Part shown: one piece after another, positions 17,697 to 20,354 of the stretch
Layout of the letters: every line of letters starts with the position of its first letter
Numbering within the stretch: position 1 is the first letter of the stretch
Assembly (NCBI RefSeq): GCF_900106765.1
Contig: NZ_FNNG01000009.1
Location: 1-64,000 of the forward strand
Length of the DNA: 64,000 nucleotides
Direction: 5' to 3'
From: Tepidimicrobium xylanilyticum
Lineage (GTDB): Bacteria; Bacillota; Clostridia; Tissierellales; Tepidimicrobiaceae
The notes under the pieces: generated by a model
What the model was told of the DNA's origin: nothing
The model's database searches: none
The model's input: only the letters and a program-made list of their open reading frames with translations
Translations under genes and position numbers: made by a program

Positions 17697-18491
17697 ATGA
17701 AAAGCATGGAACCAGAAATCAAATACATTCCAATTGACTCCATTAAGCCTAATCCATATCAACCTAGAAAAGATTTTAATAAAAAAGCTTTGGAAGAACT
17801 AAGTCAGTCTATAAAAGCCTTTGGATTAATACAACCAATTAGCGTACGGAAACTCCAAGATGAAAAATACGAATTAATTGCTGGCGAGAGAAGACTTAGA
17901 GCCTCTGAATTAGCTGAACTAGAAAAAATACCTGCTATAGTTTTAGAGTACAGAGATAGGGAATCCGCCATGATGGCATTAATAGAAAATTTACAGAGAG
18001 AGGATTTAAATTTTATAGAAGAAGCAGAAGGATATAATAATTTGATAAAAGATCATGGATTTACTCAACAAGAATTAGCTGAAAAAATTGGTAAAAGCCA
18101 GTCTACTATTGCTAATAAGCTTCGAATATTAAAACTGCCTGATGATATTAAACGAGATTTAATAGAGTATAATTTAACTGAACGACATGGACGGGCCTTA
18201 TTGAAATTACCAGACTATGAACTGCAAAGAAAGGTTTTAGATAAGATTATAAAAAACGATTTAAATGTAAGTAAAACTGAGGGGCTAGTAAAGGATATAT
18301 TGGATGACTTAACGAAAGATAAAAAAGAGGATAAAAGAAAAAATATTATTGGTTTAATAAATACTCGTATTTATATAAATACCATAAAAAAAGCTTATAA
18401 GGCTATTAAAGATAGTGGAGTTGATGCTAAGTATATTGAAAAGGATAAGGGAGAATTTTTAGAGGTTTATATACAGATTCCTAAAAGATAA
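17697..18491 (+). CDS. noc: Nucleoid occlusion protein, ParB family (Noc-like)
   Basis: About 264-residue ParB-fold protein: N-terminal CTPase/clamp domain (PNPYQPRKDF, then the GERRLRA box), a central helix-turn-helix (TQQELAEKIGKSQSTIANKL), and a short C-terminal dimer domain. As the first of two ParB paralogues, just after rsmG, it takes the position of noc, whose product blocks division over the nucleoid. ATG at 17697 chosen (GGGGAG upstream). The assignment as Noc rather than a second Spo0J rests on gene order. Confidence 0.82.
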   Translation: MKSMEPEIKYIPIDSIKPNPYQPRKDFNKKALEELSQSIKAFGLIQPISVRKLQDEKYELIAGERRLRASELAELEKIPAIVLEYRDRESAMMALIENLQREDLNFIEEAEGYNNLIKDHGFTQQELAEKIGKSQSTIANKLRILKLPDDIKRDLIEYNLTERHGRALLKLPDYELQRKVLDKIIKNDLNVSKTEGLVKDILDDLTKDKKEDKRKNIIGLINTRIYINTIKKAYKAIKDSGVDAKYIEKDKGEFLEVYIQIPKR

Positions 18492-18535
18492 TAAAAGCCA
18501 AAATGTTTCACGTGAAACATTTTGGCTTTTATTAT
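18488..18535 (+). promoter_or_regulatory. parS site 1 inside a 48-bp perfect palindrome (terminator-like)
   Basis: The 16-bp parS sequence TGTTTCACGTGAAACA occupies 18504-18519. It is the centre of a perfect 48-bp palindrome whose outer part is A/T-rich with GGC/GCC, ending TTGGCTTTTATTATT, so the RNA would fold into a long terminator-like hairpin. The palindrome begins within the noc stop codon. Binding by Spo0J is inferred from the exact parS match. Confidence 0.9.
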
Positions 18536-18621
18536 TAAATAAATTTCTTTTTTCTTTTTTATCTGATATTATATAATAGAAGGTAAAACTGCTTTTATAT
18601 AAAGAGGCGGAGGTGGTAAAT

Positions 18622-19386
18622 ATGGGTAAAATAATATCCATATTTAATCAAAAAGGTGGAGTTGGGAAAACTACAACAGTCATAAATTTAGCTGCTGCAC
18701 TAGGAAAACTGGATAAAAAAGTTTTAATCGTGGATATAGACCCTCAAGGTAATGCTACTAGTGGTTTAGGCATAGATAAGAACAACTTAGAACTTTCTTT
18801 ATATGATGGATTGATAAACAAAGTACAATTAAAGGGAATAGTTCAAAATACCTCTGCTGAAAATGTGGATATAATCCCTTCCAATGTAGAACTAGCTGGT
18901 GCAGAAATAGAGCTAATTTCTATGGAAGATAGGGAGTTAGCACTAAAGAATGCTTTATCTGGCATTCAGGAATATTATGATCTAATTCTCGTAGATTGTC
19001 CACCTTCATTAGGCTTACTTAGCATTAATGGTTTATCGGCTTCTAATAGCGTAATAGTACCAATTCAATGTGAATATTATGCCCTTGAAGGGGTAAGTCA
19101 ATTGGTGGACACCATTATGCTAGTTAAAAGGAGTTTAAATCCAGATCTTGAAATAGAAGGAGTAATACTTAGTATGTTTGATGGACGGACTAATCTATCA
19201 ATACAAGTGGTAGAGGAGGTAAAGAAGTATTTTAAAGGAAAGGTTTATACGTCAATTATACCAAGAAATGTGAGACTAGCAGAAGCTCCAAGCTATGGCC
19301 TTTCTGTATTAGATTACGATCCCAAGTCAAAAGGTGCTGAAGCCTATGTTGAGTTAGCTGAGGAATTTTTATACTTATCTGAATAG
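18622..19386 (+). CDS. soj: Chromosome partitioning ATPase ParA/Soj
   Basis: About 254-residue MinD/ParA-type ATPase with the deviant Walker A KGGVGKTT, the DIDPQGNATSG switch, and VDCPPSLG Walker B. With Spo0J and parS it separates origins and, in Bacillus, controls DnaA. The ATG at 18622 is 7 nt after GGAGGT; the GTG at 18613 overlaps that site. Placed directly after parS site 1. Confidence 0.96.
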   Translation: MGKIISIFNQKGGVGKTTTVINLAAALGKLDKKVLIVDIDPQGNATSGLGIDKNNLELSLYDGLINKVQLKGIVQNTSAENVDIIPSNVELAGAEIELISMEDRELALKNALSGIQEYYDLILVDCPPSLGLLSINGLSASNSVIVPIQCEYYALEGVSQLVDTIMLVKRSLNPDLEIEGVILSMFDGRTNLSIQVVEEVKKYFKGKVYTSIIPRNVRLAEAPSYGLSVLDYDPKSKGAEAYVELAEEFLYLSE

Positions 19387-19454: not shown

Positions 19455-20312
19455 ATGACAAAAAAAAGAGGATTAGGAAAAGGTCTTGCTGCATTAATTC
19501 CTAATGAACCGATTATTGACTTAATAGAGGAAGATAAGGAAGCGAACTTAGTTAAAAATATTGATATATCGTCTATCTTCCCGAATAAGGAACAGCCTAG
19601 AAAGGAATTTGATGATAGTCTACTAGAAGAATTAAAAGAATCTATAAAACAGCATGGAGTTCTTCAGCCAATTATAGTTAGGGAACGTGAAACGGGATAT
19701 GAAATTGTTGCTGGTGAAAGGAGATGGAGGGCTGCAAAGACGGCTGGTTTAAAGGAAATTCCTTGTGTAGTCATGGAAATAGACGATGAGGAAGCTGTTA
19801 AGTTAGCTTTAATTGAAAATTTACAAAGGGATGATTTAAATCCTGTGGAAGAAGCCAATGCATTTAAGAAGTTAATAGAAGACTATAACTTAACCCATGA
19901 AGAAGTGGCTAAGTCTTTAGGAAAAAGTAGGTCTTATATAACCAATAGCATTAGATTACTTAATTTAGATAAGGAGATAATAGAGCTACTAGAAGATGGG
20001 CAAATAACCAGTGGTCATGGAAGAGCTTTATTATCTATAAAGGATAGTAAAGAACGGAAAAAAATTGCTAAGCAAATATTAGAAGATAAGTTAAATGTCA
20101 GGGATACTGAGAAGATTGTTAAGGGAAAAAGAAAGAAAAAATCTATAAAAAAGAAAGAAGAAGATTTATTTGTCAAAGAAGTTGAAGAAAAACTTATGAA
20201 TCGACTGGGTACCAAAGTTACTTTAGATTTAAAGAAAGATAAAGGGACTATTCAAATTGAATTTTATGGTGATGAGGATTTGGAGAGAATATTAGAATTG
20301 ATTATAGGATAA
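19455..20312 (+). CDS. spo0J: Chromosome partitioning protein ParB/Spo0J
   Basis: 285-residue ParB/Spo0J with the canonical N-terminus KKRGLGKGLAALIP (the peptide that stimulates Soj), the CTP-binding GERRWRAAK box, the DNA-binding helix-turn-helix (THEEVAKSLGKSRSYITNSI) and a Lys-rich linker before the dimerisation domain. It loads condensin at parS. The ATG is fixed by the conserved N-terminus, yet no ribosome site is at normal distance. The second parS lies just after the stop. Confidence 0.96.
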   Translation: MTKKRGLGKGLAALIPNEPIIDLIEEDKEANLVKNIDISSIFPNKEQPRKEFDDSLLEELKESIKQHGVLQPIIVRERETGYEIVAGERRWRAAKTAGLKEIPCVVMEIDDEEAVKLALIENLQRDDLNPVEEANAFKKLIEDYNLTHEEVAKSLGKSRSYITNSIRLLNLDKEIIELLEDGQITSGHGRALLSIKDSKERKKIAKQILEDKLNVRDTEKIVKGKRKKKSIKKKEEDLFVKEVEEKLMNRLGTKVTLDLKKDKGTIQIEFYGDEDLERILELIIG

Positions 20313-20316
20313 ATAG

Positions 20317-20340
20317 CATATGTTTCACGTGAAACATATG
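20317..20340 (+). promoter_or_regulatory. parS site 2
   Basis: TGTTTCACGTGAAACA at 20321-20336, identical to site 1, within a 24-bp perfect palindrome starting CATATG. It lies 5 nt after the spo0J stop. Together the two sites bracket soj-spo0J. No T-run follows, so this copy is not terminator-like. Confidence 0.92.
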
Positions 20341-20354
20341 GAAGGGAGTATAAA

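Follow-up and report, generated by a model that had tools for sequence, protein, structure and literature searches.

The window analysed here, a stretch of 64,000 nucleotides from Tepidimicrobium xylanilyticum (contig NZ_FNNG01000009.1, positions 1 to 64,000), contains the gene row rsmG, noc, soj, spo0J and a phzF-like gene; ORFs resembling trmE and mnmG, recognised from their translations alone, precede rsmG. The features examined around the noc 3' end and the segregation genes are listed below, with coordinates in the window.

17700-18491, + strand: noc, ParB-family nucleoid occlusion protein (NCBIfam TIGR04285, E 6.5e-103, above cut-off); the gene runs into the palindrome at its 3' end
18488-18535, no strand: perfect palindrome of 48 bp, from the sequence and an arm-by-arm check
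18497-18526, + strand: predicted terminator hairpin GCCAAAATGTTTCACGTGAAACATTTTGGC, 30 nt, -17.0 kcal/mol, terminator score 18.1 on the noc strand
18504-18519, no strand: exact 16-bp parS TGTTTCACGTGAAACA, 0 mismatches to the consensus, at the centre of the 48-bp palindrome
18527-18536, + strand: T tract TTTTATTATT of the predicted terminator, from the sequence and terminator scoring
18572-18577, + strand: predicted soj -10 box TATAAT within the motif TGNTATNATATANT, which is common to relatives and starts 60 nt past the parS centre
18622-19386, + strand: soj, ParA-type ATPase, assigned from its position and from ParA-family matches that all fall under the curated cut-offs
19455-20312, + strand: spo0J, chromosomal ParB and predicted reader of parS (TIGR00180, E 2.4e-60, above cut-off)
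20317-20340, no strand: 24-bp palindrome containing a second exact parS (20321-20336), used as an internal control

Four residues of Noc (Q134, K140, K145 and R162) do not vary among the 13 aligned sequences, one of which is that of the window. The residue set QKKR is described in PMC7383237 as giving Noc its preference for NBS, and matching by eye to that paper suggests that the Noc of the window carries the full NBS-type set; by the same comparison Spo0J has R and G at the positions of Noc's Q and R. NBS was not enriched genome-wide: with the B. subtilis consensus and up to 2 mismatches, 12 forward matches were found vs 24 for a reversed-pattern control. The consensus word used does not occur as a string in PMC7383237. 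Noc sites in this genome may differ from the B. subtilis NBS or be few.

The earlier note on this DNA had placed parS in the middle of a perfect 48-bp palindrome, and the arm-by-arm check bears this out: the exact 16-bp word lies at the centre, with 16 extra pairs per arm outside it. The limits given for the palindrome needed adjustment. It begins not in the noc stop codon but at the last base of the final sense codon (AGA, 18486-18488), so that the whole stop codon TAA (18489-18491) lies in the 5' arm; the T-rich tract said to lie at its end is present, but already starts within the 3' arm, and a further T-rich tract follows downstream at 18544-18560. The palindrome exceeds chance. The RNA fold of 18470-18565 gave a z of -9.73, with none of 200 shuffles equally stable; Rfam at gathering scores matched a single element in the whole window, one rRNA end. 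For matching we used the 16-bp parS consensus word. At up to 2 mismatches it occurs at just two sites in the 3.0-Mb genome, both within the window and flanking soj-spo0J, one on each side. The consensus word, its rarity, its place beside the par operon and a Spo0J with parS-type residues (read by eye) are together what would be expected of a chromosomal parS site, to which ParB is predicted to bind.

The best terminator reading of the palindrome is a hairpin with a GCC/GGC base followed by TTTTATTATT, directly after the noc stop codon. It scored 18.1 on the noc strand and 19.4 on the opposite strand, using a score of the d'Aubenton-Carafa type. By RNA folding and by this score, the element has a stable GC-based hairpin, a small loop and a T tract 3' of the stem, the last provided that the basal A-T pairs are left out of the stem. 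A consensus terminator scan reported the palindrome on the - strand only, because the scan counts the T tract as stem. From these properties we consider the palindrome to be a predicted intrinsic terminator of noc, which probably stops its transcription.

Downstream of this hairpin, soj is preceded by the -10 motif shared with relatives. The consensus scan listed no promoter-like site at the predicted -10 box, and the -35 box of soj would therefore be weak. Thirteen family rows have both the motif TGNTATNATATANT and an upstream parS or parS-like word; the distance from the centre of that word is 54-60 nt in ten of them and 94-110 nt in the other three. Outside the family, where the comparison excluded 15 loci of one parS-rich genome (G445, below), spacings differ, for example 38 or 79 nt. 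A fixed distance between parS and the soj promoter was thus rejected as a general rule, holding in 10 of 13 family rows and failing in other families. A spacing of 54-60 nt would let loaded ParB reach the soj promoter, which we regard as a lead and not as a result; within the family the common spacing may stem from shared descent.

The second parS of the window, just after spo0J, scored negative as a terminator on both strands (-49.5 and -31.6); the consensus scan, a lenient one, nonetheless listed it as terminator-like on the - strand. Fifteen of the 20 family genomes were compared at the spo0J 3' end, each with a parS or parS-like word just after the gene. In 10 of these 15 a phzF-like gene follows spo0J and parS, as in the window (20313-20354); this gene has no obvious link to segregation. 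Where phzF is downstream, the palindromes measure 16-28 bp and all terminator scores are negative. Where it was not found (five genomes), they measure 22-46 bp and three of the five scores are positive (p = 0.009 vs the phzF group, a value that overstates independence, because the three longest palindromes lacking phzF belong to one genus). The three positives are likewise of one genus (G003-G005), which makes this comparison weaker than its p value suggests; the post-spo0J core of G003 has one base changed, and the contig of G004 stops about 150 nt past its site.

We then compared the noc 3' ends themselves within the family, noc being present in all 20 genomes searched. The letters of the arms vary between genera, and their complementarity is largely kept. 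The covariation alignment covered 12 of the 16 arm pairs in 19 rows from 17 genomes, with two rows each for G001 and G010 and without G013, G014 and G016. Both-side changes were found in 11 of the 12 pairs, 42 cells having such changes, as would be expected of compensatory pairing in a terminator stem. Paired cells amounted to 86.1% vs 70.7% in shuffles, and none of five measures was reached in 500 shuffles; when the partner was shifted by one column, pairing fell to 60-64%. In a separate re-pairing test of the arms 198 of 228 cells were paired; 5,000 shuffles gave 163 on average and at most 181. Covariation alone is no proof of selection, since copying by template switching also yields covariation.

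Terminator scoring at the parS position of the noc 3' end covered 19 genomes (20 rows), leaving aside G016 and the first copy of G010, whose cores lie outside the search pattern. The score was positive in 15 genomes (16 rows), of which 11 have an intact parS core and four a changed centre (G010, G012, G017 and G018), CATTTG in G018 and CACATG in G017; the hairpin is retained in both of the latter. The best stem is the 16-bp core alone in G002, G009 and G012. Negative scores came from G011, G013, G014 and G005, the last having a long GC stem and no T tail. In G013, G014 and G016, which represent two genera, an arm-less parS or parS-like word lies near a separate hairpin, and that of G013 scores 36.4. 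G018 and G019 belong, with G017, to another genus than the window: both arms of G018 are identical to those of the window despite its changed centre, and in G019 the arms match at 16 of 16 and 16 of 16 positions, while the 40 nt that follow match at just 14. The nominal distance of 833 nt between this site and noc in G019 is due to a run of N and is an assembly artefact, as the noc tail repeated past the gap shows.

Some arms in the family resemble copies of neighbouring DNA. In G009 (L062, 1462-1511) the final codons of noc recur almost exactly, in inverted orientation, as the 3' arm, which gives a 50-bp near-palindrome with one mismatch. The 5' arm of G004 likewise extends into the last noc codons and is mirrored in the 3' arm. 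Palindromes also lie upstream of soj in G004 (42 bp) and G006 (44 bp), with no ORFs or only short ones ending before them; at the soj-upstream site of G017 a 155-aa ORF ends 90 nt away.

To see these sites against a wider background we assembled overlapping sets of 20 family, 150 order and 398 phylum genomes, together with 80 named noc loci, the best 80 of a longer list. Sites containing N or flanked by less than 60 nt were excluded from the counts, as were the 15 loci of G445, a genome with 69 parS copies. The counts refer to the retrieved sites, a part of those present in the genomes: 213 distinct parS contexts, and 191 after clustering. Gene context was assigned from simple ORF calls with a 70-nt limit. 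Sites at the end of an operon, meaning those 3' of a gene that has no close neighbour downstream, had a mean of 5.9 extra pairs per arm, vs 2.5 for operon-internal, 1.2 for intragenic and 2.9 for other intergenic sites. Among operon-end sites 18 of 58 had at least 8 extra pairs per arm; the numbers were lower in the operon-internal (1 of 36), intragenic (1 of 45) and other intergenic (7 of 52) classes, giving 27 of 191 overall. The other 164 include the second parS of the window. One intragenic parS has a 34-bp palindrome.

Terminator scores followed the same division. On one strand, positive scores were obtained at 23/58 operon-end, 0/36 operon-internal, 1/45 intragenic and 10/52 other sites, where shuffling the flanks around a fixed parS led us to expect 0.6, 0, 0.05 and 0.05. 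Without the family of the window the corresponding counts were 14/45, 0/26, 1/45 and 5/43. Since the one-strand score of intragenic and other sites takes an arbitrary strand, we compared the classes by either-strand counts, which were 26/58, 1/36, 2/45 and 13/52 in the same order (Fisher p for operon-end vs internal 4e-6, vs intragenic 3e-6, vs other intergenic 0.045). In eight of the 13 positives among the other sites, an ORF of 92 aa or more ends 82-152 nt upstream on the scoring strand, just beyond the limit used for gene context. In permutations within families, none of 20,000 reached the observed 23 operon-end positives (mean 15.7). These positives are spread over nine numbered families, to which three named genomes (L218 Clostridia, L245 Phascolarctobacterium and L253 Acholeplasmataceae) are added; each named genome was treated as its own group and may overlap with the numbered families. 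The earlier note had proposed conservation of the outer arms in relatives as a check, and the outcome depends on position: at the noc 3' end complementarity is kept despite new letters, but at operon-internal parS sites the arms are short or absent, a split that agrees with the dual use proposed in the note.

Two genomes of the sample have unusual parS sites. G445 (loci L124-L138) has 69 exact parS in 3.0 Mb, where other genomes have 0-7 among the matches listed; most of the 15 loci share TTTGGTTAATAA right ahead of parS, some copies form pairs with a spacing of about 116 nt, and a single contig has 11 in a span of 8 kb. These copies look like a dispersed repeat family carrying parS. In G080 (L037, 1501-1761), four parS or near-parS words follow rsmG; the first lies in a strong GC-rich terminator-like hairpin with a score of 40.3 and the other three share one altered central base.

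The direction in which such hairpins would act was addressed in several ways. Positive scores on the antisense strand were obtained at 18 of the 58 operon-end sites. Operon-end sites, sorted by length into three bins, showed no T/A asymmetry outside the palindrome in any bin (p 0.82, 0.39 and 0.44), and at the 18 sites with at least 8 extra pairs T after the palindrome averaged 5.22 vs 5.06 for A before it (p = 0.44). A wobble-direction test on imperfect arm pairs likewise gave no bias (G-U in 2 vs 3 cases). Given the near-equal scores on opposite strands and the lack of T/A asymmetry, no single direction of transcription can be assigned; the hairpins may be two-way terminators.

We also surveyed the noc stop codons of the named loci, 79 of the 80 having yielded a noc. 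A terminator-scoring hairpin lies within 150 nt of the stop at 42 of the 79, vs 0 of 79 after one single-base shuffle per locus. Hairpins were found at 31 of the 67 loci that have no nearby parS-like word and at 11 of the 12 that have one, and at five of those 11 parS is contained in the hairpin. These counts indicate that noc often has a terminator anyway, into which parS is sometimes built.

Taken together, we favour, with a probability of about 0.8, the reading that the noc-end palindrome is a chromosomal parS and at the same time forms the upper part of an intrinsic terminator closing the transcription unit of which noc is the last gene. As DNA, the central 16 bp would be the loading site of Spo0J (ParB). 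As RNA, 18497-18526 would fold with parS as the upper stem, GCC/GGC as the base and a U-rich tail, and an RNA polymerase leaving noc would be released at the T tract; transcription of soj would then begin at a promoter of its own some 60 nt downstream. The outer arms would serve the RNA function and be unnecessary for ParB. As a ready-made perfect hairpin, parS would be an easy seed for a terminator. The dual use suggested in the earlier note, a ParB loading site and a noc terminator in one piece of DNA, is supported by the terminator score, the compensatory changes in the arms, the dependence on gene context and the recurrence across families.

A different origin of the arms is conceivable, in which template switching between imperfect arms extends parS unless a coding or ribosome-binding sequence stands in the way, and the resemblance to a terminator is a by-product. 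Quasi-palindrome template switching is an established process in the literature, and the inverted copy of the last noc codons in the 3' arm of G009, the mirrored arm of G004 and the soj-upstream palindromes of G004 and G006, which have no clear gene end nearby, are what it would produce; freedom from coding constraint alone would also keep operon-internal and intragenic sites short. It would not be expected to leave arms letter-identical across two genera beside diverged DNA, to place T tracts after the stems so that scores rise far over those of flank shuffles, or to spare the sites beside a separate hairpin in three genomes of two genera. These three observations favour function on the sequence evidence, and we judge the by-product account unlikely as a full explanation. 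Some of the arms probably arose by template-switch copying, which may account for their birth, not for their upkeep.

Long arms also occur at several positions in the family, at the noc 3' end, upstream of soj and after spo0J where phzF was not found, a distribution that would suit a role in ParB biology: the arms might enlarge the site for ParB binding or clamp loading, or be extruded as a cruciform used in loading. The 164 of 191 clustered sites with fewer than 8 extra pairs per arm, among them the second parS of the window, speak against such a role, as do the hairpins kept at the altered parS centres of G010, G012, G017 and G018, and we hold it to be very improbable. We give still less credence to the site being an operator through which Spo0J controls its own operon at the soj promoter, the arms being incidental. 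The common 54-60 nt spacing in the family would fit this, but three family rows and the other families depart from it, and the arms are left without explanation. The reading as parS and noc terminator has exceptions of its own: the soj-upstream palindromes of G004 and G006 and the 34-bp intragenic site remain unexplained by it.

ParB sites and intrinsic terminators are each well known, and the nearest precedent for such an overlap is found in the uptake signal sequences that lie within Rho-independent terminators in Neisseria and Pasteurellaceae (Kingsford et al. 2007, PMC1852404). In both cases a recognition word of an unrelated process appears to be co-opted as a terminator stem. Uptake signals, as described there, generally number at least 1,000 per genome, each stem being built from two complementary copies, whereas in the window a rare word (two per genome) is itself palindromic and would be read by the centromere-binding ParB; the site is an analogue of uptake-signal terminators and not a member of them. 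It is like the chromosomal parS of Firmicutes ParABS systems in having the exact 16-bp consensus beside soj-spo0J, and unlike them in that its flanks form a terminator-like hairpin. With two-way intrinsic terminators (A tract, stem, T tract) it shares a GC-bearing stem, a small loop and a T tract right after the stop codon; unlike in ordinary intrinsic terminators, a fixed protein-binding word makes up the upper stem, which adds a second constraint. The earlier note also suggested that Spo0J spreading or clamping at the site could alter noc or soj transcription, which is conjecture at this point. In a review of ParB (PMC7022226), expression of genes next to parS sites is described as unchanged in B. 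subtilis lacking Spo0J, and the main text of that review contains no word starting with 'terminat'. Among the literature matches listed, which comprised titles and abstract openings with subscription journals thinly covered, none described parS within terminators.

A bacterial centromere word thus appears to have been reused in apparent terminators with differing arms; within the sample, sites of this kind occur in nine numbered families and in three named genomes. For annotation, the length of a palindrome around parS should not be taken as that of the ParB site; terminator finders will flag some centromere sites as terminators, and probably rightly. The arrangement raises the question of whether transcription into parS disturbs the loading of ParB, and whether stopping transcription there helps. 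One could go further and suppose that the overlap is active, a ParB roadblock aiding termination or the terminator shielding the ParB loading site from noc transcription. We put this forward as speculation that is more doubtful than not by a wide measure; were it so, centromere assembly and the expression of segregation genes would be coupled at one element, which would have been built repeatedly in Firmicutes.
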